Positions 44,154 to 64,000 of a DNA stretch of 64,000 nucleotides are shown piece by piece. Both the position numbers and the translations under genes were made by a program. The stretch comes from Candidatus Pelagisphaera phototrophica (GTDB lineage Bacteria; Verrucomicrobiota; Verrucomicrobiia; Opitutales; Opitutaceae): NCBI RefSeq assembly GCF_014529625.1, contig NZ_CP076039.1, positions 1,550,001 through 1,614,000 on the forward strand, written 5' to 3'. The notes under the pieces are model-generated. The model worked only from the letters and a program-made list of their open reading frames with translations. It was not told the DNA's origin and made no database searches. Position 1 is the stretch's first letter, and each line of letters starts with the position of its first letter.

Positions 44154-44178
44154 GAAAGCGAATAATTGAAGCGTTACT

Positions 44179-45732: not shown

Positions 45733-45890
45733 ATACGAATTTAGGAAGAATAGGAATAGTTAACGGAATTCTCCATGGCGGGTTTCCTTCTGCAATTTGA
45801 GCTCGTCTATTGCATTGTTGGGAGAAGCTGTTCTAATGGTAGTTTGTTTTCTCTACGGTGAATCCCGGAGAATTTAACCCAAGTCATCTT

Positions 45891-46613: not shown

Positions 46614-48058
46614 TGCTCGCAGGAAAAATATTTTGGATAGGGCTAGCGTCGCTTTTGTTCGCTAACCTCTCTGCCCAAAGCGAAAAGCCAAATATTCTGC
46701 TCATCGTTTCAGACGATCAGGGCTACAATGACCTAGGTCAGCTCAACAGTGAAATTATTACGCCCAATCTGGATCGTATTGCCAGAGAGGGGACTCGTTT
46801 GAGCAGTTTCTATGTTGCCTGGCCTGCTTGCACCCCATCTCGCGGGGCTTTTTTGACCGGACGCTACCCACAGCGGAACGGAATCTATGATATGATTCGG
46901 AATGAGGCACCGGATTATGGGCATAGATACGATGAAGACGAGTACGCAGTGACTTGGGAGCGAATTGGTGGAATGGATGTCAGGGAAATATTGATACCTC
47001 AAGTACTGAAACCTCAAGGATACGTTTCAGGTATATTTGGGAAATGGGATCTCGGTATCAGCAAACGCTTTCTGCCTTTGGCGAGAGGGTTTGACTCATT
47101 CTATGGACTTGTGAATACGGGGATCGACTACTATACGCACGAGCGATACGGGGTGCACAGCATGTTTCAAGACAATGAGAGGACCGAAGAAGATCGCGGG
47201 ACCTATGCGACCTATTTGTTCGAGCGTGAAGCACTGCGGTTCTTAGAAGAAAGAAAGGATAACGAACCTTTCTTCCTCTACCTCCCCTTTAACGCCCCAC
47301 ACAATTCATCCTCTCTCGATCCTAAAATCCGAGGAACGATTCAAGCGCCTGCCGAATTTAAAGAAATGTACCCACCTGTAGAGAATCTCTTCAAAGAAGG
47401 TACGAAGTACGGAGAGAAGGCGAAGGTGCCAACGTCAGAAGCGCGTCAGCGGGATTTCCGAGCTGCCGTTACCTGCATGGATGCATCCATAGGAAAACTG
47501 CTCGATTCCTTGGATCGAAAAGGTTTAACAGACAATACGATTGTCTTGTTTTTCTCTGACAATGGAGGGGGAGGCGGTTCGAGTAACTATCCTCTTAGAG
47601 GGGGCAAAGCTAGGACTTGGGAAGGCGGGATCAGAGTACTCGCTTTGGCCCGGTGGCCCAACGGCGGGATCCCTGCGGGTACTGTTAACGATGCATTTCT
47701 GACGAGTCTGGAGCTGTTTCCAAGTTTAGCGGCGGCAACCGGTTCGAAGCTCCCCGAAGACGTTAAGATTGACGGATACAATTGGTGGGCGACGTTGAAA
47801 GGCGAAACGGAAAGCCCGAGAAACGAAATGTTTTGGAAGCGGAAAGGGAGAAAGTCCGCTCGAATCGGAAACTGGAAATGGGTGGATATGGAAGAAGAAG
47901 GGGGAGGGCTCTTTGATTTGTCCGATGACCTCGGAGAGAGAGACGATCTCTCGTTGCAGCATCCTGAAGTCCTAAAGCGACTGAAGCAGAGATTCGGCGA
48001 ATGGTATCAGGAAACGATGTTCGATGCGGAGCCTAGAGGATCGTTCAAGGATTTCTAG
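46613..48058 (+). CDS. secreted sulfatase, C-T-P-S-R type
   Basis: 481 residues from the ATG at 46613, which overlaps the preceding stop by one base. An upstream in-frame start at 46583 would lie inside the DUF1080 gene. The signal peptide is IFWIGLASLLFANLSAQ. PNILLIVSDDQGYNDLG and WPACTPSRGAFLTGRYP (the formylglycine cysteine) are the catalytic signature. IFGKWDLG, APHNSSS and TIVLFFSDNGGGGGSSNYPL complete the S1 fold. The stop-start overlap with the DUF1080 lipoprotein suggests both act on the same glycan. It is convergent with the NIPSNAP gene (21 bp). Confidence 0.93.
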   Translation: MLAGKIFWIGLASLLFANLSAQSEKPNILLIVSDDQGYNDLGQLNSEIITPNLDRIAREGTRLSSFYVAWPACTPSRGAFLTGRYPQRNGIYDMIRNEAPDYGHRYDEDEYAVTWERIGGMDVREILIPQVLKPQGYVSGIFGKWDLGISKRFLPLARGFDSFYGLVNTGIDYYTHERYGVHSMFQDNERTEEDRGTYATYLFEREALRFLEERKDNEPFFLYLPFNAPHNSSSLDPKIRGTIQAPAEFKEMYPPVENLFKEGTKYGEKAKVPTSEARQRDFRAAVTCMDASIGKLLDSLDRKGLTDNTIVLFFSDNGGGGGSSNYPLRGGKARTWEGGIRVLALARWPNGGIPAGTVNDAFLTSLELFPSLAAATGSKLPEDVKIDGYNWWATLKGETESPRNEMFWKRKGRKSARIGNWKWVDMEEEGGGLFDLSDDLGERDDLSLQHPEVLKRLKQRFGEWYQETMFDAEPRGSFKDF

Positions 48059-48079
48059 TTCCAAGATTCGCTATATAAC

Positions 48080-48853
48080 TCAAATTTGGGAATAATTCGT
48101 AGGGACAAAAATATTGTCTGTTATCGCGGATACAGTTCCTGCATACCGCTTGTTGGCTCGAAGCTTTTGCCATGCGGGATCTGCACTAAACCGCTTCCAA
48201 TTGGCATCTCGTTCGGCCATATCCTTGAAACCGAGCATATAGATAAGATTTGGCATCAGTGGACCGGCAAGGGTCTTACCGAAAAAAACAGGGTGAAGTC
48301 CCACGTTTCGAAAGATTTCGATTTCGCCGCCTTCATTGAACATTTCCACTTTCAGATCGCTCTTCACTCGATTGTGGGCCTCGTAAACGCGAAACTCGAA
48401 AATGCGGCCTTTTTCTCCGGCGATAGCTGAAGGAACTTCGACCTGAGGCATGTGGGAAAATGCTCTCATCAGGGAGCTTTCCATCCGGTCATATAGCGGC
48501 GTTTCCATTTCCGTATTAGAAGCTTTTTTGTAGTCAGCCGTTTTAACCAATTTATCCCAAGTTGTCAGAAAGGATTCGATCGTTTTGTGGGGTACCAGCA
48601 TAAACACTTTGGTTCCACGCTCTCCGTGCTTAGGGCGGAAGACGCCGATCGGAGAGCAGCCTTTTGAATTCAACCCCGGAACGACGACATCCTTTAGGAA
48701 TGTCTCAAGAGCTCCGCGTCGGGCGTTGTTAAGTACCTCAAATGTTATCCACTCCAAGTAGTGGGCATCATCGGAGGGTTCATGGTGAGTTCCAAAAAGA
48801 GCGGCAGGGGTAGCGGCCGCAGCGGCGGCAGTGACGAAGGTTCTACGATTCAT
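48080..48853 (-). CDS. NIPSNAP-family protein with Tat-type leader
   Basis: 257 residues from the ATG at 48853; an upstream start at 48904 would add 17 without leader character. The N-terminus MNRRTFVTAAAAAATPAALF has a twin-arginine signal (RRTF). Two ferredoxin-like NIPSNAP domains follow, with YLEWITFEVLNNARRGALE and FRVYEAHNRVKSDLKVEMF. The function of bacterial exported NIPSNAP proteins is not established. It is in a cluster of sulfatases and DUF1080 proteins and is divergent from the DUF1080 gene at 49036. Confidence 0.85.
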   Translation of the reverse strand: MNRRTFVTAAAAAATPAALFGTHHEPSDDAHYLEWITFEVLNNARRGALETFLKDVVVPGLNSKGCSPIGVFRPKHGERGTKVFMLVPHKTIESFLTTWDKLVKTADYKKASNTEMETPLYDRMESSLMRAFSHMPQVEVPSAIAGEKGRIFEFRVYEAHNRVKSDLKVEMFNEGGEIEIFRNVGLHPVFFGKTLAGPLMPNLIYMLGFKDMAERDANWKRFSADPAWQKLRANKRYAGTVSAITDNIFVPTNYSQI

Positions 48854-49035
48854 ATTCTGATTCGAAACGATGGAGACAATGCTGTCAACTGATCGTGTCT
48901 TCAAAATACGACTTCAAAAAATTAATAGAGGGCATGAAATTTAGAACTTTCTAAAACTATACGGTCCTCTGAGATGCGTAGCGCCAGATTTTTGAAGTTG
49001 GCTTTTTTTGGGTGGGGTAGCATAGATAGCGGGAT

Positions 49036-49746
49036 ATGAAAAAAGTTACTATCCTGTTATCCTCTTTGTTTTTCATGGGCTCGCTTGCGTTTGCGGACCA
49101 TCACGGCAAGAAATGGGTGTCATTGTTTGATGGCAAATCCTTGCAAGGCTGGACTGCTAGCAAGGAAAACCCTGATTCCTTCTCTGTTAAAAACGGCACG
49201 CTGATTGTGGATGGCGGACGTTCGCACCTGTTCTATACAGGGGGTGTGAATGGCGGCACTTTTAAGAACTTCGAGTTGAAGGTAAAAGCTAAGACTATGA
49301 AGAACGCGAATGGAGGTGTCTATTTTCATACTGCTTATCAAGACGAGGGCTGGCCTTCGCAAGGCTTCGAGTGTCAGGTGAATACCAGTCAAAAGGATCC
49401 AAAAAAGACGGGCAGCCTTTACGCTGTGGCCAATGTGTACGTTCCTATGGAGCCAGAGGAACCATTTATCATTCGTGTAGACAAAGCGGGTGCTCAAGTA
49501 TATCGTGAGAAAGCACCTTCAACCGATGGCAAATGGTTCGATTACCATATCATTGTCAAAGGCGAGGATGTTACGATCAAAGTTGATGGCGAAACGATCG
49601 TCCAGTGGAAGCAGCCTCCAGGCTATGCGGGACCGAATCCGGGCATGTCGGGTCGCGTACTGGGTAGCGGCACCTTTGCCCTGCAGGCCCACGATCCTGA
49701 CAGTATTACCCATTACCAAGACATCCAAGTCAAGGTCTTGGACTGA
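49036..49746 (+). CDS. secreted DUF1080 protein (3-keto-disaccharide hydrolase family)
   Basis: 236 residues with a Sec signal (ILLSSLFFMGSLAFA). The single DUF1080 domain shows WVSLFDGKSLQGWTAS, FELKVKAKTMKNANGGVYFH, GFECQVNTSQKDPKKTGSLY and a closing HYQDIQVKVL. Unlike the homologue at 45891 it has no lipobox, so it is probably periplasmic or outer. It stands alone, followed by a terminator, in the sulfatase cluster. Confidence 0.9.
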   Translation: MKKVTILLSSLFFMGSLAFADHHGKKWVSLFDGKSLQGWTASKENPDSFSVKNGTLIVDGGRSHLFYTGGVNGGTFKNFELKVKAKTMKNANGGVYFHTAYQDEGWPSQGFECQVNTSQKDPKKTGSLYAVANVYVPMEPEEPFIIRVDKAGAQVYREKAPSTDGKWFDYHIIVKGEDVTIKVDGETIVQWKQPPGYAGPNPGMSGRVLGSGTFALQAHDPDSITHYQDIQVKVLD

Positions 49747-49768
49747 TCGTTATTCCAACCAATTTTCC

Positions 49769-49801
49769 AAAGCGGTACAGCCGAGTGTGTACCGCTTTTT
49801 T
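49769..49801 (+). terminator. intrinsic terminator after the DUF1080 gene
   Basis: Stem AAGCGGTACA / TGTACCGCTT with an 8-base loop and six T behind it, 23 bp past the stop at 49746. Confidence 0.9.
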
Positions 49802-50334
49802 GTGGTTAGTGATATCGCACCGTTTGGAATTTCAGCCTGTTCATGCAGCAGATCGATACTGTTGTGGATGGTTGGGGTTTCAGGCGAGAGGGTCGATAAA
49901 TAATTGATCAAAAATCGCCGCTGCAGTTGATAGGAGCGAACCGTAGGTCCAAAACTGCATAGGCTAATACCACATGCAAAATGGATTGATAAAATGGTGC
50001 AGGCTCTAGCGGGATTTCGCGATGTTGGGGCACCGCCTACGAAACCATTTTCGTAAGTGTTACGCCGCCTTGTGCTGCACAAACTACAGTCGGCACTTTT
50101 TGCATTTGTATCAATCATACTGAAGCACTGAGCTATCTAGTGGGATTTGGATTCAAAAAAAGCCCAATCCTCAGCGATAGATCCCTGATGCGGTTTCGAT
50201 TTGGGTAGTCTTCAACTAGAGGACTGGCGAACCCCTAAAATTTATAACCCAGTAGTGTTGATGCTCTCTCCTGATTGCGGGAACCATAGGTCGCCGGTGA
50301 TCTTTAGGCCTCAATTATACAAATGACCGAAGTG
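49802..50334. other. 533-bp gap with no recognised gene
   Basis: Between the terminator and the TPR gene no conserved protein or RNA is recognisable. A 122-codon reverse frame (50118-49750) is open but crosses the terminator and matches no family I know. It may be the decayed remains of a gene or chance. Confidence 0.5.
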
Positions 50335-51750
50335 CTACCTAAACTTATTGGTGTACATTGCTTGCATCTGGCTTATCGCCTTTTCCGAAACACGAGGGGA
50401 ATCGATCGCTCTCTGTAGATATCGAGAGGCTTTAGCCGGATCTCCCGCTAAAACATAAAAAATGGTAATTAACTCCAGAGACAAAGGGTTGCTGGGTTCT
50501 GCTTTAAGAGCCTTTTGCAGCTGTTCGAGGGCCTTTCGATTTTCACCCATTTTGAGGTAGATTCTGGCCAAGTAGTTGTAACCTACTGCGTTGTTTGGAA
50601 CCAAGCGAATGGTCGTCTCAAAGTAGGGAATCGCTTCGTTGAGGCGATTCTCATTGATTAGGGCCTCACCCTTGTAGTTACTGATCACATACGATTCGGG
50701 ACATTTAGCGATTGCCTGATCGATCAATTCAGAAGCTCTCGATTGATTTCCGGACTTAATTTCGACGGAAATTAATCCAGCCCAGCCTCTATCGAAAGTT
50801 GGGAGAGTTCTTATGCAGTTTTCGTAGGTTTTCCGAGCCTGATCTAGATCTCCTTGCTCTACGTAGAGTTCGGCTAGATGGTTGTAGGCATTATGATCGA
50901 GAGGGTCGAGGGCTGTGGCCTTATTCAGTAGTTGGATGGCTCTGATCGTATTCCCTGCTCGTCCGGCTTTCCCGCCGGCCATTGCAACTTCGAATGAGTC
51001 GTAGCATTCCGAGACAATATCGTCGACCCACGGATCGGGTGTTTCTATGTGGCTGCTCCAGGTGACGTCGTGGAGGAGGGCCCGGGCTTTTGACTTTTCA
51101 CCGAGCCTCTCGTAAATGTCGGCAAGAAGATCTCCGCCAACCCGGTTGTTTGAGCGCCTGGCGGATTCGAGGAGAGGTTTGGCCTGTGCCGCATCGTTCT
51201 TAGCTAGAGCGATGCGAGCTAGGCCGAATAGGGCGAATGGGTTAGTGGGCGTTTTGTCGTAAACCGATTGGAAAACGCGCTTCGCTTCGTCGTGTCGATT
51301 TAATTTTAAGAGGGTATCTCCGAGGTGGATATAGGAGGGAAGGTATTCAGGGTCGAGCTCGATGGTTTTTTCATAAAGTGCAATGGAATCGTTAAGTTGC
51401 CCGAAACTGGAAACAATCGTAGCCAGCCTGTAGGGCCAGAGAGGGTTTTTCTCATCGATCGCGATCAGGATTCGATAGCCTTGCCAGGCTCGATTTAAAT
51501 ATCCATTAGCGTGGTATAATGTGCTCAATAGGGCAAGGGAATCGACACGATTGGGGCCTTGGGTCGACCGCTTATTCAGGTCTGCTATACGATTACTGAG
51601 TTCTGGATGAAGGCCTTTGGAGCTGGGAGTGGGTAGCAGATGGGTTTCGATTACTGCTGCGAAATGTCTTTGGGTCTTCCAGTATAGATTTCCAATCAAC
51701 ACGCTTGCGAATATTGCAAATCCTATACCTGCCATCAGTGCTTTCTTCAT
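50335..51750 (-). CDS. tetratricopeptide-repeat protein, membrane-anchored
   Basis: 471 residues from the ATG at 51750. An N-terminal helix (ALMAGIGFAIFASVLIGNLYW) anchors it or serves as signal. About ten TPR units follow, for example IALYEKTIELDPEYLPSYIH, FALFGLARIALAKNDAAQAK, AYNHLAELYVEQGDLDQARK and GYNYLARIYLKMGENRKALE. It is a protein-interaction scaffold without catalytic motifs. Its ATG overlaps the TGA of the upstream FG-GAP gene (ATGA), so the two are translationally coupled and probably function together outside the cytoplasm. The frame upstream of the ATG (to 51819) lies inside that gene and is not preferred. Confidence 0.88.
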   Translation of the reverse strand: MKKALMAGIGFAIFASVLIGNLYWKTQRHFAAVIETHLLPTPSSKGLHPELSNRIADLNKRSTQGPNRVDSLALLSTLYHANGYLNRAWQGYRILIAIDEKNPLWPYRLATIVSSFGQLNDSIALYEKTIELDPEYLPSYIHLGDTLLKLNRHDEAKRVFQSVYDKTPTNPFALFGLARIALAKNDAAQAKPLLESARRSNNRVGGDLLADIYERLGEKSKARALLHDVTWSSHIETPDPWVDDIVSECYDSFEVAMAGGKAGRAGNTIRAIQLLNKATALDPLDHNAYNHLAELYVEQGDLDQARKTYENCIRTLPTFDRGWAGLISVEIKSGNQSRASELIDQAIAKCPESYVISNYKGEALINENRLNEAIPYFETTIRLVPNNAVGYNYLARIYLKMGENRKALEQLQKALKAEPSNPLSLELITIFYVLAGDPAKASRYLQRAIDSPRVSEKAISQMQAMYTNKFR

Positions 51751-53033
51751 TGATACTCCCTTTCCTTCCAGATAGCGAAGCGTCCAATCCGCTCGAATGG
51801 CGGAAAACTTGGGAAACAACCGGAGATGATTTCGCCCACCCCATCTCCATCGAAATCTGCAAAATCGATCGAAAGCAATTGGATCGGCTCGTATGCGAGG
51901 GTCACTTTTGTGAAGCTTTGAGCCCCATCGTTTCTAAATAGGACGAGTGAATCCGATTCAGGATTTTCCCAATCGTTAAAGGCACTGACGCTTAGGATGT
52001 CTGGATCGCCGTCTTGGTCGATGTCTCTCACTATCGGGCTATAGGCTCCGGCAAGATCTCCGATTCGCTTGTAGCTGAATTTGCCATTCCCTTCGTTCTC
52101 TAGCCATTGGATACCGTGCCAGGGTCTAGGTCCCGGTTTGAGGGTGGGACCAAAGCCATCGCCGTTGGCAAAAACCAGGTCCGGCCTACCATCTTGATTT
52201 AGATCTGCCGTGGTCATACCGCTTGAAGCGAAGTCATGATTGGTCGAGCCCCAAATTATTCTGTCTGTGAAATTGCCTTTGCCGTCATTTTCGAATAGAT
52301 GGATTTCCTCCCAGTGTTGGGAGAATTGGGCTGCGATATCCGGGTGACCGTCATTATTGAAATCGTTGACGCAAACATTGATCAATCCTGAAAGGTGAAG
52401 CAGCGACTGGCTTTCAAATTGCCACGACCCAATGTTTTTCATCCAGCGGACACCTCCTTGATCGTATCCAAATTGCCCTACTACGAGGTCGAGGTCTCCA
52501 TCGCCATCCATGTCGTGGGCTCGGGCGTCCGTCACGCGTTCGACGTCCTCCAAGAGGATCCTTTTAGTGAAGTTCTGATCGCCGTCATTTTCGAGAACGA
52601 TGAGGGCTCCTATCTTATTGTTGTTGGGGAACACAATATTCATGCAGGATACCAGTATATCGTAATCACCATCTTCATCTAAGTCGTAAACCTCCGCGTG
52701 GACTGGGGCCTGCATATCGGAGGCGAGAAGAATTTCGGTGAACTGTCCTTTTTCATTTTGTTGGAGCCAAATGACTTCGTTATATTTAGCCTCGCATCCG
52801 ATGGCATCCATGAGTCCATCTTGATTTAAGTCGAAAGCCCGAACATGGGCGATCCAGGGAACGTTGGTGGACTCGTTACCGATTTCGCTGCTGGAGTATC
52901 GATCGAGGTCAATCTCTGATTGATTGATCGGTGGAGCGGGCGTATCTAAGGAAGTAAGTTCAGGGGAGCAGCCTACTTGAAGCAGGAATAGCGTCGAGAA
53001 AACGAACATGAAGACGGGAAAGTGAGTTTCCAT
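51747..53033 (-). CDS. FG-GAP/VCBS beta-propeller lipoprotein
   Basis: 428 residues. The signal ends in the lipobox LLQVGCS. The body is a series of FG-GAP (integrin alpha-like) repeats with Ca-binding DxNxDGxxD loops: FDLNQDGLMDAIG, YDLDEDGDYDILV, HDMDGDGDLDLVV, NDFNNDGHPDIAA, ADLNQDGRPDLVF, RDIDQDGDPDILS, ADFDGDGVGEIIS. This makes a seven-bladed propeller, usually used for binding. It is coupled to the TPR gene by an ATGA overlap. A damaged copy of its middle part lies at 57439-57876 next to the second TonB receptor. Confidence 0.9.
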   Translation of the reverse strand: METHFPVFMFVFSTLFLLQVGCSPELTSLDTPAPPINQSEIDLDRYSSSEIGNESTNVPWIAHVRAFDLNQDGLMDAIGCEAKYNEVIWLQQNEKGQFTEILLASDMQAPVHAEVYDLDEDGDYDILVSCMNIVFPNNNKIGALIVLENDGDQNFTKRILLEDVERVTDARAHDMDGDGDLDLVVGQFGYDQGGVRWMKNIGSWQFESQSLLHLSGLINVCVNDFNNDGHPDIAAQFSQHWEEIHLFENDGKGNFTDRIIWGSTNHDFASSGMTTADLNQDGRPDLVFANGDGFGPTLKPGPRPWHGIQWLENEGNGKFSYKRIGDLAGAYSPIVRDIDQDGDPDILSVSAFNDWENPESDSLVLFRNDGAQSFTKVTLAYEPIQLLSIDFADFDGDGVGEIISGCFPSFPPFERIGRFAIWKEREYQ

Positions 53034-53182
53034 TTTCTGATTCTTTCTCGTCGCTACGAATAAACCTCCAACATTGAAAAAGGCATTTAGGAAAGCTCAA
53101 TCTCGATGTCGGTCAATCGCAAGAGCAATTCCGCCCATACGTTTGCATAAATGCTTTTCGTAAATGGTACAAAACCACCAAT

Positions 53183-53209
53183 AAAAAAGGCCCGGCGGTA
53201 AGCCGGGCC
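53183..53209 (-). terminator. intrinsic terminator of TonB receptor 1
   Basis: On the reverse strand the stem GGCCCGGC / GCCGGGCC with a 5-base loop is followed by six T, 31 bp past the receptor stop. Confidence 0.9.
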
Positions 53210-53239
53210 CTTGTCGGTAAAATGGTTTAGAACGTTCGC

Positions 53240-56200
53240 CTAGAAGCGGAACGTATTGGTCAACCAGATCTGCCTTGGAGGCGCGAAACGTGCCCGGGCA
53301 GGTGATCCGTCCTGCTGAAAGCGGAAGACGTCCACGTCGGTGTTGTCCCAGTTGTGGACATTCCGCATGTTGATCTGCATACGCCAATCCACGTTGTTCA
53401 TGATCTTGGCCCTGTAGCCGAAGGTCAGGTCGACAGCGAGATCTGTGTCGGTGAAGTATCCTTGGTCCACGAGTGGCTCGTAAATACGGAGATCGTCGTT
53501 GAAAGCCACAGGGTAACCGCCGTTAACCTCGTCCTGCCAGCGAGCGGCACCGCCAATTTGGAAACCCTTCAGTGGGCCTTCGCGGAAGGTGTAGTTGGTG
53601 ATCAAATTGAAGCGCCATTCGCGTTGCTCAGCGGTCGGCTGGCCTTCGAGTCCTTTGACATAGAAGTACTCGACCAAGCGTTCGTAAGTGGTGCTTTCAA
53701 AGGTCGCACCCTGAGGCGTTCCGGTTGGGTTGCCCCAATCCATGTAGCCAAACCGCTGCATATAGGGCAGAAGGAATGAGTCGACGAGGTTTTCCAATCG
53801 TGGTGCGATATTATCCATTATCACTTCCTGCCGGGCCGCGTTGAAGGCGATGCGCCAGCTTTTGGTAGGATTGAGTATGATCTCGGCCTCCATACCTTTA
53901 GAGGTGATGTCGGTTGTGTCGTTAATTGAGCCGGCCCACTGTATGTTGATATCGCCATCTGGAAGGAAGCGAGCGTTAAAGGAATCAATGAGCTCATCAT
54001 CAAAGACAAATTGCTCTAGGGGCTCCATCGCAAGACGGGTTTCTGCCAAGTATGGCCATTGAGCTGCGATAGCGTCGTCAAGGTTTGCGAACCCTTCCTC
54101 AGCGTCTTCTCCGGCAAAGTACAATCCTACCTCTTCATCGAATTCGAAAAATTCGTCGATGATACCCGGATCGACTTTACCGTCACCGGAGAACAGGAAC
54201 TCGCCGGTGTCGTTGTCATAGGAATCGTACCGACGGGAGTCGCGGTTGAGGCGTCCGTACCACTGGAAGATGCGCGTATAGTTGCGGTTCCAAATACCGG
54301 AAGTCGGAGCGGAAGCATTTTGGAGGGTGGCCTCGTAGAAGTTCACTCGAGCCACGAGTTTGTTATTCCACATGTAGGCACTCACGCCCCAGTCCATTGT
54401 GTCGCCGAACTGCGAAGGGATAGGGCGACGATATTGGTCGACCCGCTCGAGTGAGGGTACGAAGTTATCCGAACTATTATAGTGGAAGGTAATGTCGTTA
54501 ACCGCCTCTGGTAGCGGAATGATATCCTTTGGCCAGTACACCACGGCCCCGTAGCCGAAGATGTTCTTTTTGACTTCATTGAAGGTGCCATCCTCCAGTC
54601 GCCAGAGATCTGGAGACACGAAAGGAATTTCATCTAGGCTATTGGGATCGATGGGAGGTTCAGTGTTGAGGAAGTTTTCGACCTTGTCTTCGCGGTAGCC
54701 TAGGTTGAGGACCAGATGGTCGCTGAAAAACTTCGATTGGCTGTTCGCGGCAAGCGATTGGACCGTGGTTTGCTGGCGTCGAACGTTCTTACTCGGAGTG
54801 TTCAAGGGCGTCCATGTGTGCTGCGCCCAGTATTCGTTTCCTCGTGAACGGTCGGTGCCATCGGCCAATGCCTGGGCAGTTGCATCCTCTCCCAAGTTCC
54901 AAGCGATTTTATCGTAGGTCCGGCCCGTCGTGCTTCTCAAGTCGTAGTAGGCCGGCTCGATAATGAAATCCGATACACTGGTGTAGTCGGTCCACGCACC
55001 CAATTGTTGGGGCCCAATGTAAACCATATTGGGAGTGTTGCGGGCATTATTAAGTGCTTGACGAGCATTGGCGGGCCCTATGTGCAGTGCTGGCTCAGGA
55101 TCGCCGAAAGAACCACGGAACCAGTTGAGCATCATCTCGTGGTGGCGGTTTTCATCGCCCAGTACCGTGAATGTATGCGAACCGAGGATGTTCGCCAGCT
55201 TGTCGTTGTTCATGCTGTCGCGGAAATCGTACTTCGCGAATGCGGTAACACGCTTAGAGGTACGCTGGTCGTCATTGGTGCGCTGTCCTGACTTCGTCAT
55301 TATGACCGGGCGTCCAAAGTTTGGATTAGGCATGGCGTTGTAATTTCCCGATTCAACGTAGTTAATATCTTCCGGGAGTATGAGGGTCTCGTTGACATCG
55401 AAGGTGATGACCGAGTTGCCGCCGTTAAGGGCGGTGTAGCTGTCGCGATACAGGTCTTGGAAGTCGTACTCGATAGAGATACCGCCTTTGCCTTCCCAAA
55501 AAGTCTGCTCCAGAGCAAGGGAGTAGTTGAAGAAGTCGCGCGAGTAGTAGTCGTTATCCCATCCAAGATTGGCACGACTGAAGTCGAACGTGTCCAGATC
55601 GGTGAAGCCCTGATCGATCCAGCCGATACCCATGATTTCACCGAGATTGCCCGGGTATAGACCTTGTGGAGCACCGCCATTACGTCCTACATTATTTCTG
55701 TAGATTCCGCCTGACCAGTAGTTAGGAATTTCGACGTTGTTGGCCTGTGAACGTCTTTCCATAGCAATACCAGGAATTTGGTCCGTGTAAGAGAAAGCGG
55801 GCTGGCCAAGGCCATTGCTGCCATCCCATACGAAGCCGTAAGCACCACCACCCCAACGAATGTTACGGTAGGTGAGAGTTGGGTACTGAGCTCCTTCAGG
55901 TGCGTCATTCGGGCTGTCGCGAACGATGTAGCCTGCGTCCAAGAAAGCAGCTCTGTCATCGGCGGAATAGAAGCGGTTGTTGTTAAATTGACCTTGGGTA
56001 GGACCTTCGTGGTGCTGAGCGGAGATCGGGTAGTCGGGATTTCGGCGGTTCTTGACCATCAAGGTGGCGTTCATCCGAGCTGGGGCCCGGAGGAATGTAT
56101 CGAAGTTCACCTGAGGGAGAAGGACGTCGGGGGCGTTACCCAGTATTTCGCCTGTTTCCATGTGGCCGCGAAATACGGTATTCTCATTGCCAAAGGGACG

Positions 56201-56968
56201 GTAGGAGAACGCCGTGTAGATACGGTCGTCGTTCTTGTAAGTCGGGCGCTGGCGGTATTCCGTACGGTCCATGACACCTGCTACGTGGAGGGCTAGTTTG
56301 TCTTCCACAACGACGCGGTTGAGCTTGAATTCCCCACGGTAGGAGGGGTTGACACCGCCACTGCCTATGCGGAAGCGAAACTCGTTGGTGTTACGAAATC
56401 GAGCACGGGCCAAGTCGTTGTTAATAATTCCGGCAGGCGAAGCGAGTCCGAAGAGAAAGGAGTTCGCCCCGCGATTGATGTCGATGCGCTCCGTGTTATA
56501 CGTGTCGAATGGTATGTCCGTCACGAAGAAGTTCCGGGTCCGGTCCGGTGCGGTAAGACCGCGAACACGTGTGGCTCCGTCCGGGTCGCGACGAGCGCCG
56601 CCCACATTGGTTTCGCCGGTGCCGCCTTCGTCGGCTCCAGAAATGTTGCCGAGAATGCCGGCGACTTCGGAACTAGTGGTGTACATGAGAAGCTCTTCAA
56701 TACCCGTCGCTCCGAGGTCGTCCATGAACTCCTTGGTGACGACCTGAACGGCGGCTCCAGTATCCTTGAGGGATCCGCTGAGACGGCCGCCGGCCATGGT
56801 TTGAGAAGCATAGTAGCCCTCGTCTCCAGAGGCATCTACTGCAAAGGGAGAGAGCTCGAAGACTTCTTCTTCCTCGTCATTCTGTGACCACCCCGTAAAG
56901 GTGGAACAGAGAAAACCGCAGCCAATAAGGGCGGTTTTGGTTACTGTTTGATAATGTTTCATATTCAT
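53240..56968 (-). CDS. TonB-dependent outer-membrane receptor, copy 1
   Basis: 1242 residues, large for the family. The signal peptide is TALIGCGFLCSTFTGWSQ. The acidic mature start EEEEVFELSPFAVDASG is typical of verrucomicrobial receptors. The plug domain (about 45-200) has GSLKDTGAAVQVVTKEFMDD and IDINRGANSFLFGLASPAG. The rest is a beta-barrel ending in NTFRF with the C-terminal aromatic residue expected for BAM-assembled porins. It imports a ligand across the outer membrane using TonB energy; the ligand is unknown. No SusD is present. It is a near-duplicate of the gene at 57987: residues about 36-681 are identical, and about 25 substitutions are scattered over the C-terminal barrel. Confidence 0.93.
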   Translation of the reverse strand: MNMKHYQTVTKTALIGCGFLCSTFTGWSQNDEEEEVFELSPFAVDASGDEGYYASQTMAGGRLSGSLKDTGAAVQVVTKEFMDDLGATGIEELLMYTTSSEVAGILGNISGADEGGTGETNVGGARRDPDGATRVRGLTAPDRTRNFFVTDIPFDTYNTERIDINRGANSFLFGLASPAGIINNDLARARFRNTNEFRFRIGSGGVNPSYRGEFKLNRVVVEDKLALHVAGVMDRTEYRQRPTYKNDDRIYTAFSYRPFGNENTVFRGHMETGEILGNAPDVLLPQVNFDTFLRAPARMNATLMVKNRRNPDYPISAQHHEGPTQGQFNNNRFYSADDRAAFLDAGYIVRDSPNDAPEGAQYPTLTYRNIRWGGGAYGFVWDGSNGLGQPAFSYTDQIPGIAMERRSQANNVEIPNYWSGGIYRNNVGRNGGAPQGLYPGNLGEIMGIGWIDQGFTDLDTFDFSRANLGWDNDYYSRDFFNYSLALEQTFWEGKGGISIEYDFQDLYRDSYTALNGGNSVITFDVNETLILPEDINYVESGNYNAMPNPNFGRPVIMTKSGQRTNDDQRTSKRVTAFAKYDFRDSMNNDKLANILGSHTFTVLGDENRHHEMMLNWFRGSFGDPEPALHIGPANARQALNNARNTPNMVYIGPQQLGAWTDYTSVSDFIIEPAYYDLRSTTGRTYDKIAWNLGEDATAQALADGTDRSRGNEYWAQHTWTPLNTPSKNVRRQQTTVQSLAANSQSKFFSDHLVLNLGYREDKVENFLNTEPPIDPNSLDEIPFVSPDLWRLEDGTFNEVKKNIFGYGAVVYWPKDIIPLPEAVNDITFHYNSSDNFVPSLERVDQYRRPIPSQFGDTMDWGVSAYMWNNKLVARVNFYEATLQNASAPTSGIWNRNYTRIFQWYGRLNRDSRRYDSYDNDTGEFLFSGDGKVDPGIIDEFFEFDEEVGLYFAGEDAEEGFANLDDAIAAQWPYLAETRLAMEPLEQFVFDDELIDSFNARFLPDGDINIQWAGSINDTTDITSKGMEAEIILNPTKSWRIAFNAARQEVIMDNIAPRLENLVDSFLLPYMQRFGYMDWGNPTGTPQGATFESTTYERLVEYFYVKGLEGQPTAEQREWRFNLITNYTFREGPLKGFQIGGAARWQDEVNGGYPVAFNDDLRIYEPLVDQGYFTDTDLAVDLTFGYRAKIMNNVDWRMQINMRNVHNWDNTDVDVFRFQQDGSPARARFAPPRQIWLTNTFRF

Positions 56969-57179
56969 AGGTGATAAGCCGTTTAGCTGTCTGTGTGTAG
57001 TGCAGTCAGTAGATCACTTTCGCCGCCTCATCTCATATTAGTTTGAGAGAAATAGAACCTGTTGATGATTTTTTAGCGGGTGTTAGGGTGAGTTTTTGCC
57101 GCGAAAGCTACGACGGTTTCTTCGCCTGTCAACCGTTAGTTTTCTTATAATTTTTTTTTTAACAAATTTTTTGGAAAAT

Positions 57180-57434
57180 CAGTCTAAGATAGCGGGCAGA
57201 ATTCGGAAAACGATTTTGTAGAATGCGGGATGGATTTCCTGTTCGAGCCGGGTTTTGTTTTCGGCTCGAGGACCCCCTTTCGCAAGATCCAGAAATCGCG
57301 GTGTAAAACCTCTCCTACATTTTTGATTCTCCACTCTAGATTCAGTCAGGGAGCTGCCCGGCGTGCCGCTTAGGCGATCCAACAAACGCGATTCGCTGGG
57401 TCTTAACGGCGATGCGGAAGTTTCCGAAGCCACA
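57180..57434. repeat. upstream repeat of unit 1 (REP-like), in the 470-bp receptor 1 leader
   Basis: It matches 62019-62265 at roughly 80-85% by eye. Read on the reverse strand it contains ATGTAGGAGAGGTTTTACAC followed by CGCGATTTC, a GC-rich palindrome-like core similar to REP sequences. Between it and the receptor start (56969-57179) the DNA is AT-rich, with a run of ten T near 57151, and probably carries the promoter. Confidence 0.65.
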
Positions 57435-57438
57435 ATCG

Positions 57439-57876
57439 GAGTGAATCCGATTCAGGATTTCCCCAATCGTTAAAGGCGCTGGCGCTTAGGATGTCTGGAT
57501 CGCCGTCTTGGTTGATGTCCCTCACTACCGGGCTACAGGCTACGGCAAGTTCGCCGATTCGCTTGTAGCTGAATTTGCTATTCCCTTCGGCCTCTAGCCA
57601 TTGGATACCGTGCTAGGGTCTAGGTCCCGATTCGAGGGTGGGACCAAAACCATCGCCTTTGGCAAAAACCAGGTCCGGCCTACCATCTTGATTTAGATCT
57701 GCCGTGGTTATACCGCTTGAAGCGAAGTCATGATTGGTCGAGCCCCAAATTATTCTGTCTGTGAAATTGCCTTTGCCGTCATTTTCGAATGGATGGATCT
57801 CCTTCCAGTGTTGGGAGAATTGGGCTGAGATATCTGGGTGACCATCATCATTGAAATCGTTGACGCAAACATTGAT
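57439..57876 (-). pseudogene. fragment of the FG-GAP lipoprotein gene
   Basis: Colinear without indels with 51945-52382, i.e. residues about 217-362 of the intact protein. The reverse frame reads INVCVNDFNDDGHPDISAQF, ... ADLNQDGRPDLVFAKGDGFG ... GPRP and then hits TAG (57613-57615) where the intact gene has the Trp of PWHGIQ. The frame beyond the stop continues with recognisable sequence. There is no start or signal peptide: the 5' end is fused at 57875-57877 to the DNA lying after the receptor terminator. It is a by-product of the segmental duplication. Confidence 0.92.
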
Positions 57877-57929
57877 TCCACCCATACGTTTGCATAAATG
57901 CTTTTCGTAAATGGTACAAAACCACCAAT

Positions 57930-57956
57930 AAAAAAGGCCCGGCGGTAAGCCGGGCC
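57930..57956 (-). terminator. intrinsic terminator of TonB receptor 2
   Basis: Same GGCCCGGC / GCCGGGCC stem and T-run as at 53183-53209, carried along by the duplication and unchanged. Confidence 0.9.
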
Positions 57957-57986
57957 CTTGTCGGTAAAATGGTTTAGAACGTTCGC

Positions 57987-60900
57987 CTAGAAGCGGAATG
58001 TATTGGTCAACCAAATCTGCCTTGGAGGCGCGAAACGTGCCCGGGCAGGTGATCCGTCCTGCTGAAAGCGGAAGACGTCTACGTCGGTGTTGTCCCAGTT
58101 GTGGACATTCCGCAAGTTGATCTGCATACGCCAATCCACGTTGTTCATGATCTTGGCCCGGTAGCCGAAGGTCAGGTCGACAGCGAGATCTGTGTCGGTG
58201 TAGTATCCTTGGTCCACGAGTGGCTCGTAAATACGGAGATCATCGTTAAAAACCACAGGGTAACCGCCGTTGACCTCGTCCTGCCAGCGAGCGGCACCGC
58301 CAACTTGGAAACCCTTCAGTGGGCCTTCACGGAAGGTGTAGTTGGTGATCAAATTGAAGCGCCATTCGCGTTGCTCAGCGGTCGGCTGGCCTTCGAGTCC
58401 TTTGACATAAAAGTACTCGACCAAGCGTGCGTAAGTTTGGCTTTCAAATGTCGCGCCCTGAGGCGTTCCGGTTGGGTTGCCCCAATCCAAGTACCCAAAC
58501 CGCTGCATATAGGGCAGGAGAAAGGAGTCGACGAGGTTTTCCAATCGTGGTGCGATATTATCCATTATCACTTCCTGCCGGGCCGCGTTGAAGGCGATGC
58601 GCCAGCTTTTGGTAGGATTGAGTATGATCTCGGCCTCCATACCTTTAGAGGTGATGTCGGTTGTATCGTTAATTGAGCCGGCCCACTGTATGTTGATATC
58701 GCCATCTGGAAGGAAGCGAGCATTAAAGGAGTGAATGAGCTCATCATCAAAGACAAATTGCTCCAGAGGCTCCATTGCAGCTCGGGTTTCTGCCAAGTAC
58801 GGCCATTGAGCGGCGATAGCGTCGTCAAGGTTTGCGAACCCTTCCTCAGCGTCTTCTCCGGCAAAGTACAATCCTACCTCTTCATCGAATTCGAAAAATT
58901 CGTCGACGATACCCGGATCGACTTTACCGTCACCGGAGAACAGGAACTCGCCGGTGTCGTTGTCATAGGAATCGAACCGACGGGAGTCGCGGTTGAGGCG
59001 TCCGTACCACTGGAAGATACGTACATGGTTGCGGTTCCATATGCCGGAAGTCGGGGCGGTTGCATTCTCGAGGGTGGCCTCGTAGAAGTTCACTCGAGCC
59101 ACGAGTTTGTTGTTCCACATGTAGGCACTCACGCCCCAGTCCTTGGTGTCGCCGAACTGCGAAGGGATAGGGCGACGATATTGGTCTACGCGCTCGAGTG
59201 AGGGCACGAAGTTATCCGAACTATTGTAGTGGAAGGTAATGTCGTTAACCGCCTCTGGTAGCGGGATGATGTCCTTTGGCCAGTACACCACGGCCCCGTA
59301 GCCGAAGATGTTCTTTTTGACCTCATTGAAGGTGCCGTCCTCCAGTCGCCAGAGATCTGGAGACACGAAAGGAATTTCATCCAGACTATTGGGATCGATG
59401 GGAGGTTCAGTGTTGAGGAAGTTTTCGACCTTGTCTTCGCGGTAGCCTAGGTTGAGGACCAGATGGTCGCTGAAAAACTTCGATTGGGTGTTCGCGGCAA
59501 GCGATTGGACCGTGGTTTGCTGGCGTCGAACGTTCTTACTCGGAGTGTTCAATGGCGTCCATGTGTGCTGTGCCCAGTATTCGTCTCCTTGTGAACGGTC
59601 GATGTCGTCGGCCAACGCCTGTGGGGTTGCATCCTCTCCCAAGTTCCAAGCGATTTTATCGTACGTCCGCCCCGTCGTGCTTCTCAAGTCGTAGTAGGCC
59701 GGCTCGATAATGAAATCCGATACACTGGTGTAGTCGGTCCACGCACCCAATTGTTGGGGCCCAATGTAAACCATATTGGGAGTGTTGCGGGCATTATTAA
59801 GTGCTTGACGAGCATTGGCGGGCCCTATGTGCAGTGCTGGCTCAGGATCGCCGAAAGAACCACGGAACCAGTTGAGCATCATCTCGTGGTGGCGGTTTTC
59901 ATCGCCCAGTACCGTGAATGTATGCGAACCGAGGATGTTCGCCAGCTTGTCGTTGTTCATGCTGTCGCGGAAATCGTACTTCGCGAATGCGGTAACACGC
60001 TTAGAGGTACGCTGGTCGTCATTGGTGCGCTGTCCTGACTTCGTCATTATGACCGGGCGTCCAAAGTTTGGATTAGGCATGGCGTTGTAATTTCCCGATT
60101 CAACGTAGTTAATATCTTCCGGGAGTATGAGGGTCTCGTTGACATCGAAGGTGATGACCGAGTTGCCGCCGTTAAGGGCGGTGTAGCTGTCGCGATACAG
60201 GTCTTGGAAGTCGTACTCGATAGAGATACCGCCTTTGCCTTCCCAAAAAGTCTGCTCCAGAGCAAGGGAGTAGTTGAAGAAGTCGCGCGAGTAGTAGTCG
60301 TTATCCCATCCAAGATTGGCACGACTGAAGTCGAACGTGTCCAGATCGGTGAAGCCCTGATCGATCCAGCCGATACCCATGATTTCACCGAGATTGCCCG
60401 GGTATAGACCTTGTGGAGCACCGCCATTACGTCCTACATTATTTCTGTAGATTCCGCCTGACCAGTAGTTAGGAATTTCGACGTTGTTGGCCTGTGAACG
60501 TCTTTCCATAGCAATACCAGGAATTTGGTCCGTGTAAGAGAAAGCGGGCTGGCCAAGGCCATTGCTGCCATCCCATACGAAGCCGTAAGCACCACCACCC
60601 CAACGAATGTTACGGTAGGTGAGAGTTGGGTACTGAGCTCCTTCAGGTGCGTCATTCGGGCTGTCGCGAACGATGTAGCCTGCGTCCAAGAAAGCAGCTC
60701 TGTCATCGGCGGAATAGAAGCGGTTGTTGTTAAATTGACCTTGGGTAGGACCTTCGTGGTGCTGAGCGGAGATCGGGTAGTCGGGATTTCGGCGGTTCTT
60801 GACCATCAAGGTGGCGTTCATCCGAGCTGGGGCCCGGAGGAATGTATCGAAGTTCACCTGAGGGAGAAGGACGTCGGGGGCGTTACCCAGTATTTCGCCT

Positions 60901-61715
60901 GTTTCCATGTGGCCGCGAAATACGGTATTCTCATTGCCAAAGGGACGGTAGGAGAACGCCGTGTAGATACGGTCGTCGTTCTTGTAAGTCGGGCGCTGGC
61001 GGTATTCCGTACGGTCCATGACACCTGCTACGTGGAGGGCTAGTTTGTCTTCCACAACGACGCGGTTGAGCTTGAATTCCCCACGGTAGGAGGGGTTGAC
61101 ACCGCCACTGCCTATGCGGAAGCGAAACTCGTTGGTGTTACGAAATCGAGCACGGGCCAAGTCGTTGTTAATAATTCCGGCAGGCGAAGCGAGTCCGAAG
61201 AGAAAGGAGTTCGCCCCGCGATTGATGTCGATGCGCTCCGTGTTATACGTGTCGAATGGTATGTCCGTCACGAAGAAGTTCCGGGTCCGGTCCGGTGCGG
61301 TAAGACCGCGAACACGTGTGGCTCCGTCCGGGTCGCGACGAGCGCCGCCCACATTGGTTTCGCCGGTGCCGCCTTCGTCGGCTCCAGAAATGTTGCCGAG
61401 AATGCCGGCGACTTCGGAACTAGTGGTGTACATGAGAAGCTCTTCAATACCCGTCGCTCCGAGGTCGTCCATGAACTCCTTGGTGACGACCTGAACGGCG
61501 GCTCCAGTATCCTTGAGGGATCCGCTGAGACGGCCGCCGGCCATGGTTTGAGAAGCATAGTAGCCCTCGTCTCCAGAGGCATCTACTGCAAAGGGAGAGA
61601 GCTCGAAAACCTCTTCTTCATCGTCGTCCTGAGCCCAACCTGTAAAGGTGGAACAGAGAAAACCGCAGCCAATAAGGGCGGTTTTGGTTATTGTTTGATA
61701 ATGTTTCTTATTCAT
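57987..61715 (-). CDS. TonB-dependent outer-membrane receptor, copy 2
   Basis: 1242 residues, same length and architecture as the receptor at 53240: signal TALIGCGFLCSTFTGWAQ, mature start DDDEEEVFELSPFAVDASG, plug domain, and barrel ending NTFRF. Differences from copy 1 sit in the signal/early mature region and after residue about 681, for example PQALADDIDRSQGDEYW against AQALADGTDRSRGNEYW, and ATLENATAPTS against ATLQNASAPTS. They include charge and size changes likely to face loops, so the two receptors may prefer slightly different ligands. It has its own terminator and upstream region, so it can be regulated separately. Confidence 0.93.
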   Translation of the reverse strand: MNKKHYQTITKTALIGCGFLCSTFTGWAQDDDEEEVFELSPFAVDASGDEGYYASQTMAGGRLSGSLKDTGAAVQVVTKEFMDDLGATGIEELLMYTTSSEVAGILGNISGADEGGTGETNVGGARRDPDGATRVRGLTAPDRTRNFFVTDIPFDTYNTERIDINRGANSFLFGLASPAGIINNDLARARFRNTNEFRFRIGSGGVNPSYRGEFKLNRVVVEDKLALHVAGVMDRTEYRQRPTYKNDDRIYTAFSYRPFGNENTVFRGHMETGEILGNAPDVLLPQVNFDTFLRAPARMNATLMVKNRRNPDYPISAQHHEGPTQGQFNNNRFYSADDRAAFLDAGYIVRDSPNDAPEGAQYPTLTYRNIRWGGGAYGFVWDGSNGLGQPAFSYTDQIPGIAMERRSQANNVEIPNYWSGGIYRNNVGRNGGAPQGLYPGNLGEIMGIGWIDQGFTDLDTFDFSRANLGWDNDYYSRDFFNYSLALEQTFWEGKGGISIEYDFQDLYRDSYTALNGGNSVITFDVNETLILPEDINYVESGNYNAMPNPNFGRPVIMTKSGQRTNDDQRTSKRVTAFAKYDFRDSMNNDKLANILGSHTFTVLGDENRHHEMMLNWFRGSFGDPEPALHIGPANARQALNNARNTPNMVYIGPQQLGAWTDYTSVSDFIIEPAYYDLRSTTGRTYDKIAWNLGEDATPQALADDIDRSQGDEYWAQHTWTPLNTPSKNVRRQQTTVQSLAANTQSKFFSDHLVLNLGYREDKVENFLNTEPPIDPNSLDEIPFVSPDLWRLEDGTFNEVKKNIFGYGAVVYWPKDIIPLPEAVNDITFHYNSSDNFVPSLERVDQYRRPIPSQFGDTKDWGVSAYMWNNKLVARVNFYEATLENATAPTSGIWNRNHVRIFQWYGRLNRDSRRFDSYDNDTGEFLFSGDGKVDPGIVDEFFEFDEEVGLYFAGEDAEEGFANLDDAIAAQWPYLAETRAAMEPLEQFVFDDELIHSFNARFLPDGDINIQWAGSINDTTDITSKGMEAEIILNPTKSWRIAFNAARQEVIMDNIAPRLENLVDSFLLPYMQRFGYLDWGNPTGTPQGATFESQTYARLVEYFYVKGLEGQPTAEQREWRFNLITNYTFREGPLKGFQVGGAARWQDEVNGGYPVVFNDDLRIYEPLVDQGYYTDTDLAVDLTFGYRAKIMNNVDWRMQINLRNVHNWDNTDVDVFRFQQDGSPARARFAPPRQIWLTNTFRF

Positions 61716-61768
61716 AGGTGATCAACCGTTTTCTGTCTGTGTGTAGGGGCAGTCAACTGATCACGTTC

Positions 61769-61795
61769 GCCGTCTCATCTAATCTGTGAGACGGC
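61769..61795. promoter_or_regulatory. perfect 9-bp inverted repeat upstream of TonB receptor 2
   Basis: GCCGTCTCA / TGAGACGGC with a 9-base spacer, 53 bp upstream of the receptor 2 start. In unit 1 the corresponding place keeps only a degenerate CTCA...TGAG. It could be an operator or a leader hairpin. Confidence 0.5.
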
Positions 61796-62018
61796 AACTG
61801 TACGTAGTGATCAGCCAGTTGCGTTTAAAAGAGGTATAAGTAAAGGGAGGAGTAGTGAATTTGTGGGTCCTGGGTATCGTAGTTTGTGTGGAAACTAGCC
61901 GGAATTAACAGGGTTTAGCTGAAAAAATTGGGTACAAGGTATAAAAGTAGAGATGTTCAACTTTCTGTCAACTGTAAGATTCTCGATAATCTTTTCCCTG
62001 ACAAATCGTATGGAAATT

Positions 62019-62265
62019 CAGTCTAAAAAAGCGGACAGAATTCGGAAAACGAGTTTCCAGAATAGGGGTGAATTTCCTGTTCGAGCCGGTTCTTGTGGTC
62101 GGTACTGGGACCCCTTTCGCAAGATCAAGAAATCGCGGTTTAAAACCGCTCCTACATTTTTGATTCTCCACTCTAGATTCAGTGAGGGAGCTGCCCGGCG
62201 TGCCGCTTAAGCGGTTCAACAAACGCGGCTCGCCGGGCCATTGTGCCGCACCTGCGAAGCCGGAG
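62019..62265. repeat. upstream repeat of unit 2 (REP-like), in the 600-bp receptor 2 leader
   Basis: Counterpart of 57180-57434. The reverse strand contains ATGTAGGAGCGGTTTTAAAC and CGCGATTTCTTGATC, the palindrome CCGCTTAAGCGG, and a GC-rich flank. It lies between the receptor leader and the DUF1501 remnant. The stretch 61796-62018 shows no recognised feature. Confidence 0.65.
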
Positions 62266-62317
62266 GTTTTTAAGCCACGCTTGCCTAGAAAAAGCCGCCG
62301 ACTAATTGAAAAATGCT

Positions 62318-62905
62318 CTAGGTAATTATGTCATGTACGACGTTTCCGTGTACATCAGTGAGGCGGAAGTCGCGGCCTTCGTGGCGGAAAGTGAGCTTTT
62401 CGTGGTCCACACCGAGGAGGTGGAGGATGGTCGCGTGAAGGTCGTGCATGTGGACCTTGTTCTCGATCGCGTACTGTCCGAACTCGTCAGTCGCGCCATA
62501 GATGAGGCCGGGTTTTACGCCCCCTCCGGCCAGCCAAACCGTAAATCCAGTTGGATTGTGGTCACGGCCTGATCCATTTTTCTGGGCCTAGGGAGTCCGT
62601 CCGAACTCTCCGCCCCACCAGACGAGGGTGTCTTCTAGCAAGCCCCGTTGCTTCAGATCGGTGAGTAGACCGGCAATCGGCTTATCGATGGCTTGGGCGT
62701 GTTCCTTGTGCTCGGGCATGTTGTCCTTGTCCCAAGCGGGGTTGTTGGAGTTTTCACTGTAGTTCACTTGTGTGAATCGAACCCCGGCTTCTGCCATTCG
62801 CCGGGTGATGAGACATTGGCGTCCATAGTCGTCTGTAGTTGACTCTTCATTACCGTACAGCTCTTTAGTTGCCTCGCCAGAAGTAGGTACTGTTTGGACG
62901 GCGGT
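62318..62905 (-). pseudogene. C-terminal remnant of a DUF1501 protein with an in-frame TAG
   Basis: The reverse frame from about 62905 reads [20 protein letters not shown], then [20 protein letters not shown] and [20 protein letters not shown] stands where the family has Tyr. In the same frame it continues [40 protein letters not shown] and [15 protein letters not shown] to a final TAG at 62318. The N-terminal half, including signal and start, is missing; a stop precedes the homology. DUF1501 proteins are exported, sulfatase-related proteins usually paired with DUF1549/DUF1553 cytochromes, which are not seen here. Confidence 0.88.
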
Positions 62906-63060
62906 TGCGCGTTGCCCGATCTAAGTAAGGAGCGGGTGCTGTATGGCTAGGGAACAAGGTACTGTCTGCTTTGATTGCGGTTGCGTGTGCTGTAGCAATC
63001 TCAATTGCATTGGCTTCTGTATCCACAGAAACTTATGAAGCCTGATTTTTTGAAGCTTTC

Positions 63061-64000
63061 CTAAAAGAAAAACAGGACTGCGATGAGCAGGACGGACAAG
63101 CAGGCGGTTATTCCGATCGGGAATACTCCTTTTCGCACATTTTCTCGTAGGTCTTCGCGAAGCTTCTCGCGTTGGTCCATCGAGGTACCCGAAATCTCCC
63201 AAATGGGGGTTAGAATCAGCGTCAATAGATTTGCGGGTCCTTCCGTTGCGAAATGGCAAAGCTTTTTCGTAGCCCCTGCGATGAGGGTTTTATGGGCGAT
63301 CCTGTTGATGCCGTTTAGGCAAATATCACAGGTTGAGTAGAAGAACTGACCTCCTTTTCGGTAGAACCAGTCGGTATCCAAAACGATCGTCGGAGTGCGC
63401 TTCAACATCGGGAGGAAAAGGAAGAACACCAGAGCCGAGAACATCAGTAGCTGCATCTGGGTGACGAGGTGACTCGTCGTGTAGGCTTGGTAATCAACTG
63501 TGTAGGGAAGAATGTCATATAAGGCCTGTGGCCTTATTCCCAAGTAGATGCAGAGGAAGGAGAGTATCCCCATGGCCCAAAGCATAGTGCCGGGAGCTTC
63601 TTTGGGTCGGAGTCCGCGGTCTTGGTTGAAGAAGACGAAGTAGGGAAACTTGATGCCTGCGTGAAGGAAGACACCGGCTGATGCGAGTTCCAAGACGATC
63701 CAGGGCCACAGGAGATGTTCGTGTTCTGCAGCTGCGATGATGATTGTCTTGCTTGTGAATCCACTAGTCAGCGGGACGGCGGAAATGGCGAGGGCCCCGA
63801 TCGTGCCGAACAATAGAGTGAGCGGCATCGTTTTGTAGAGCCCACCCAATTCGGTACAGCGGCTTTTGCCAGTGCGGTAGAGCACCGCTCCCGCAGACAT
63901 CCAAAGCAGAGACTTGTATATGATGTGGCAAAACGCGTGAGCGGTGGCTCCGCTGATCGCCATGTCCGTTCCAATGCCTGCAGCGCAAACCATGAACCCA
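63061..64000 (-). CDS. MrpD/NuoM-like proton-translocating antiporter subunit, C-terminal part (runs off right edge)
   Basis: At least 312 residues. The reverse frame is still open at 64000 (GFMVCAAGIGTDMAISGATA), so the N-terminal part lies outside. GATAHAFCHIIYKSLLWMSAGAVLYRTG and PLTSGFTSKTIII are hallmark helices of the proton-antiporter family shared by MrpD and complex I subunits NuoM/NuoN. The C-terminal extension (residues about 200-310) with an amphipathic stretch and a final helix is more like Mrp-type cation/proton antiporter subunits. It is an inner-membrane protein. Sibling subunits, if any, are beyond the window. Confidence 0.82.
   Translation of the reverse strand, partial: GFMVCAAGIGTDMAISGATAHAFCHIIYKSLLWMSAGAVLYRTGKSRCTELGGLYKTMPLTLLFGTIGALAISAVPLTSGFTSKTIIIAAAEHEHLLWPWIVLELASAGVFLHAGIKFPYFVFFNQDRGLRPKEAPGTMLWAMGILSFLCIYLGIRPQALYDILPYTVDYQAYTTSHLVTQMQLLMFSALVFFLFLPMLKRTPTIVLDTDWFYRKGGQFFYSTCDICLNGINRIAHKTLIAGATKKLCHFATEGPANLLTLILTPIWEISGTSMDQREKLREDLRENVRKGVFPIGITACLSVLLIAVLFFF

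Follow-up and report, generated by a model that had tools for sequence, protein, structure and literature searches.

The window analyzed here is a stretch of 64,000 nucleotides from Candidatus Pelagisphaera phototrophica (contig NZ_CP076039.1, positions 1,550,001 to 1,614,000). Towards its end it carries two long open reading frames of the same strand, arranged head to tail:

53240..56968, minus strand: receptor copy A, TonB-dependent receptor-like protein of 1242 aa (ORF; Pfam Plug, E 4.4e-8)
57987..61715, minus strand: receptor copy B, TonB-dependent receptor-like protein of 1242 aa (ORF; Pfam Plug, E 4.3e-8)

Each gene is 3729 bases long and free of internal stops at these coordinates, and the two encoded proteins are 98% identical. 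Pfam places a Plug domain (PF07715) at residues 67-181 of both copies, with 34 and 34.1 bits against a cut-off of 23.9. No match to PF00593, the C-terminal TonB-dependent beta-barrel, was obtained for A or B at E 0.001, and neither is among the 14 matches to this family in the genome. That A and B form a barrel is suggested by their length and by general knowledge of the receptor family; a structure model with a mean pLDDT of 37.7 is too poor to decide on the barrel or to place the 22 replaced residues discussed below. NCBIfam and PDB sequence searches, one of them with copy B as the query, reveal a weak similarity to FhuA/FoxA-type receptors that is confined to the surroundings of the plug. 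The plug region thus resembles that of FhuA, FoxA and CntO, but the matches span ~140-240 residues near the plug and score 32-41 bits, far under the NCBIfam cut-offs of 686-904, and the A/B protein exceeds those models in length by ~480-520 residues. The neighborhood of the receptors includes three sulfatase genes together with genes for a 3-keto-disaccharide hydrolase and a NIPSNAP protein (39459-40910, 44179-45732 and 46583-49746), which hints at the use of sulfated glycans.

Origin of the pair by tandem duplication

The surroundings of the two receptor genes comprise the following features:

51747..53033, minus strand: intact FG-GAP gene, downstream of A (Pfam FG-GAP_3, E 7.9e-46; same order in G006, G008 and G001)
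57439..57876, minus strand: decayed FG-GAP fragment between the receptors (412/438 identical to 51945-52382)
57126..57438, minus strand: upstream spacer of copy A, of which 57126-57400 is 84% identical to 61965-62237
61965..62237, minus strand: counterpart in the spacer upstream of copy B (alignment to 57126-57400)
50335..51819, minus strand: TPR protein gene, third in the row receptor / FG-GAP / TPR

The comparison set contains one genome per species, and the nearest relative compared, G006 (92% protein identity), has a single receptor gene at the matching locus, followed by FG-GAP and TPR genes as in the window and preceded by an antiporter-type gene. The low end of the FG-GAP fragment (~57439) abuts the upstream spacer of A and constitutes the junction of a duplication; its high end is a 745-base deletion relative to copy A, after which the tail of copy B begins. 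This synteny and the junction show that the pair is the product of a tandem duplication of a segment reaching from within the FG-GAP gene to the receptor upstream spacer. The two receptor genes, which share one genome, are thus duplicates of each other, as the junction and the FG-GAP fragment attest. The TPR gene has no second copy within the window. The fragment differs from G006 at 37/438 positions and the intact copy at 18/438, a larger distance that is to be expected of the fragment because it is a dead copy.

The duplication most likely postdates the split from G006, to judge from the single copy in that genome, from the distances in the 3' part of the gene (A-B 0.049, vs 0.12-0.13 to G006) and from the informative sites there, 34 of which join A with B, 11 A with G006 and 8 B with G006 when G008 is taken as the fourth row. 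Support for A with B is concentrated in the first portion of this region (26 of the 34 sites lie before codon 940) and is thin beyond that codon. A tree built from the DNA of the 3' part by itself does not reject A+G006 (p-AU 0.381) and rejects B+G006 weakly (p-AU 0.0365). A mosaic structure of the 3' part was also sought; the two conflicting kinds of site are near balance (11 and 8) and are taken as mostly repeated change, a reading qualified by the thin support past codon 940 and by the AU values.

The element at 57240-57420, upstream of A, was examined as a possible dispersed repeat and dismissed: besides itself and 62078-62237, it yields 9 other matches of 24-44 bases, and a motif scan allowing 2 mismatches finds 3 places, two of which are again 57240-57420 and 62078-62237. 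There is hence no case for a repeat-driven mechanism starting from this element. Just upstream of receptor B, the minus strand holds the C-terminal remnant of a DUF1501 gene with an internal stop (62280-62919), and the stretch 61807-62482 aligns to the matching place in G006.

An identical block between diverged flanks

Base-by-base comparison divides the two genes into three portions:

54924..56860, minus strand: identical block, copy A (codons 37-681 and the first two bases of codon 682; 1937/1937 vs the copy B block)
59671..61607, minus strand: identical block, copy B (1937/1937 vs the copy A block)
53240..54923, minus strand: diverged 3' part, copy A (codons 682-1242; 77 sites differ from copy B)
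57987..59670, minus strand: diverged 3' part, copy B (77 differences from copy A in codons 682-1242)
56861..57036, minus strand: diverged leader and upstream stretch, copy A (codons 1-36 plus the 68 bases before the start codon)
61608..61783, minus strand: diverged leader and upstream stretch, copy B (codons 1-36 plus the 68 bases before the start codon)

The sequence-only reading had described the block as free of mismatches, silent sites included, and its flanks as diverged, and both descriptions are confirmed. The block corresponds to bases 109-2045 of the gene and cannot be extended by a single base on either side. The whole-gene alignment contains 88 differences in 3729 positions at a constant register of 4747 bases, distributed as 11 in codons 1-36 (11/108 bases), 0 in codons 37-681 and 77 in codons 682-1242 (77/1683 bases). 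Upstream of the start codons, a gapped alignment of 68 bases reveals 10 mismatches and 2 gap columns. When used as a query against the 4.09-Mb single-contig genome, the block was found at two places, 54924-56860 and 59671-61607.

Such a distribution departs widely from chance. The longest identical run between A and B is 1937 bases; when 88 mismatches were scattered uniformly over the gene 20000 times, the longest run reached 559. In a permutation test restricted to sites variable against one or two relatives, with all sites or third positions alone, 0/10000 permutations reached the observed run in each case. Synonymous change between the copies amounts to 0 in ~445 sites of the block and to ~51 in 367 sites of the 3' part, and the 95% upper bound on synonymous divergence in the block (0.0067) amounts to 4.8% of the 3' figure; if rates are even, the homogenization would date from within the last ~5% of the time since the duplication.

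The stretch that follows the stop codons behaves differently from the remaining flanks. Over 112 bases, A and B differ at 1 position, fewer than the 3' coding rate predicts (P ~0.03). This near-identity is read as constraint and not as a second conversion tract, because the same stretch is slow against G006 too (mismatches at 6 positions, plus 2 gap columns) and includes a terminator-like stem of 11 pairs with a T tail just downstream of copy B. Promoter and terminator scans returned counts near chance (4 against 4.1 and 6 against 5.4), and Rfam gave no match within 44000-64000.

Probable recent gene conversion and alternative explanations

Between A and B, then, there is a local excess of identity that includes silent sites and is bordered by diverged sequence on both sides. 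Neither chance nor constraint accounts for this identity. The evidence, above all the permutations (0/10000) and the complete lack of synonymous change in the block, strongly favors a recent gene conversion that took in the plug and some 500 residues after it, as had been proposed from the letters of the window alone. We regard a tandem duplication followed by one recent gene-conversion tract between the receptor copies as the best explanation of the locus, and one in which we place high confidence. The sequence of events is as follows. A segment from the interior of the FG-GAP gene to the receptor upstream spacer was duplicated in tandem in this lineage; one FG-GAP copy decayed, and both receptors stayed open and diverged to the ~14% seen at synonymous sites. 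In the recent past, one receptor copy would have served as the template when ~1.9 kb of the other was repaired or exchanged. This tract spans the plug and the half of the protein that comes after it; the event would have erased all differences within the tract and left the old divergence in the flanks outside it. The process is presumed to be RecA-dependent homologous recombination, with strand exchange by RecA, and the genome has both a RecA gene and a MutS gene; we infer strand exchange by RecA, a single event and its non-reciprocity from the pattern described.

Nothing in the repeat scans points to a programmed switch. A scan of 53000-62400 detected no tandem repeats, and a search for base runs in A, B and the regions upstream of them yielded a single homopolymer, T10 at 57151, which lies in the spacer of A and outside the block; within the block, the same search detected no extended mono- or dinucleotide runs.

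Other explanations merit consideration. If the copies truly differed in the block and assembly or polishing had copied one consensus onto the other, the identity would be an artefact. This seems improbable, given that the window sits in one 4.09-Mb contig and that each copy retains its own diverged flanks at a constant register of 4747 bases, with outer flanks that are syntenic with G006; furthermore, a collapse would be expected to drop a copy, and not to leave 77 differences beside 1937 identical bases. Slightly less probable still is a history in which the locus once had three copies, underwent unequal crossing-over and then lost a copy, which could generate a shared internal segment without classical conversion. 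Copy number does change in the genus, as tandem pairs of this receptor family in G007, G010 and G005 indicate, but diverged sequence on both sides of the block would call for several exchanges, and the alignments show a single FG-GAP fragment and a single junction.

A similarly small chance is given to the idea that conversion acts repeatedly and selectively on the plug half, which would remain matched to one TonB partner, and that the C-terminal half diverges towards a second substrate range; if true, the split between plug and C-terminal halves would represent a shared energized module and a variable module. The least credible alternative, to which we assign a negligible probability, is that strong constraint or a mutational cold spot holds the block identical. 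The plug region, which lies in the block, is indeed among the parts best conserved between species. Nonetheless, constraint and low mutability can be discarded because the block differs from G006 at 198/1935 sites and its dS to G006 (0.444) is above that of the 3' part (0.352 for A and 0.407 for B). With dS to G006 as the yardstick, the block evolves normally between species, in agreement with the preferred reading of a recent conversion.

Divergence of the 3' part

The 3' part looks like the unconverted portion of the gene, still showing the age of the duplication. A and B are separated there by 22 replacement codons and by 47 silent ones. Differences of the silent kind are unclustered (3180/10000 permutations as high), and the 3' part therefore fits one age. 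Replacement codons are spread nearly as by chance (671/10000), as opposed to the pooled differences, which are clustered (8/10000 permutations reach the observed variance/mean ratio); runs of derived states were matched by 194/10000 permutations. The pooled clustering may be due to variable loops or to additional exchanges of small size within the 3' part. Polarization against G006, which covers the 3' part and is silent on the donor of the block, assigns 31 derived changes to A and 43 to B, and 3/77 sites fit neither assignment.

It had also been suggested that variation of the C-terminal barrel could diversify the specificity for ligands or phages. The data do not sustain this suggestion. 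Taken as an average over the whole of codons 682-1242, dN/dS between A and B is 0.020/0.155, or ~0.13, much as between orthologues in the same region (~0.15 for A-G006 and ~0.12 for A-G008), and hence the elevated ratio that would mark a ligand-diversifying pair is not observed in the 3' half. In addition, 14/22 replacement codons fall at positions that are variable among four orthologues, vs 206/561 of all 3' codons.

The receptor family in related genomes

Homologues were searched for in 57 genomes, 10 of which belong to the same genus besides that of the window. A receptor match at E 0.001 was present in 41/57, mostly distant, and near relatives of A and B were identified in 9/10 of the genus genomes, with G002 and G003 contributing incomplete genes at contig ends. 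For G009, no match above 47% identity appears among the matches listed. In the genome of the window itself, the next best place for the receptor is 48% identical over 284 residues. Tandem pairs occur in G007 and G010 (L044 and L045), and a further pair in G005 consists of two incomplete genes.

In a quick protein tree of 17 rows, one branch (support 92) unites a single member of the G007 pair and a single member of the G010 pair with three fragments from G005 and one from G003, and the other (support 89) gathers the remaining G007 and G010 members, A, B, and the sequences from G006, G008, G001, G004 and G002; neither of these support values earns the program's star. The tree suggests an older pair, of which the line of the window probably lost one member and then duplicated the other anew. 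The pairs in G007, G010 and G005 lack a conversion tract: their longest identical runs are 22, 36 and 23 bases, respectively, and dS is ~1 or more in the block and the 3' part alike. They have therefore undergone no recent conversion, and there is no sign of a recurrent habit. In G002, G003 and G005, contigs end inside the receptor gene (L048, L049, L046 and L047), at ~codon 653 in the case of G002. Near-identical copies might have confused the assembly at these points, but chance may be responsible, as these genomes comprise 270-810 contigs each.

Relation to known cases of conversion

Gene conversion and short-term concerted evolution of bacterial outer-membrane protein paralogues were described by Santoyo and Romero (2005), as cited in PMC6053082. 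The cases mentioned there share with A and B the homogenization of outer-membrane paralogues within one genome, silent sites included; the present one, with one tract in one genome, comes from an Opitutales bacterium and concerns two TonB-dependent receptor-like genes. According to the account in PMC4552749, chimeras among the bab genes of Helicobacter pylori, which encode outer-membrane proteins, arise when part of one gene is converted within the genome, and these paralogues are likewise similar in some regions and different in others. There, on the other hand, conversion shifts phase-variable CT repeats of the 5' region, of which the scan of 53000-62400 found none at A and B, and the bab genes occupy separate loci, designated A and B in that system, whereas the receptors studied here are in tandem. 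A tandem duplicate pair with a converted stretch is also reported in PMC1762029 for PE_PGRS17/18 of tubercle bacilli, in which a linked set of differences has been moved by gene conversion; that pair belongs to an unrelated protein family, and the event was seen in many isolates, as opposed to one genome here. Topic searches, whose scope left out most subscription journals, returned no title or abstract mentioning gene conversion or TonB-dependent receptors.

The A/B pair is thus a clear but ordinary instance of a well-known recombination process, knowledge of which it leaves unchanged. Its value lies in offering, from an Opitutales bacterium, a clean and datable case of conversion in a tandem pair of outer-membrane receptor genes, and in illustrating that whole-gene identity is an unsafe basis for dating a receptor duplication.

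Elsewhere in the window, the open reading frame at 35395-39249 (minus strand) contains an in-frame tandem repeat of 339 bases in 2 copies that are 98.8% identical (36622-37300). This repeat doubles one Big_9/cadherin-like domain in a protein of 1284 residues whose start, judged by eye, is signal-like, and a third, diverged unit follows the pair.
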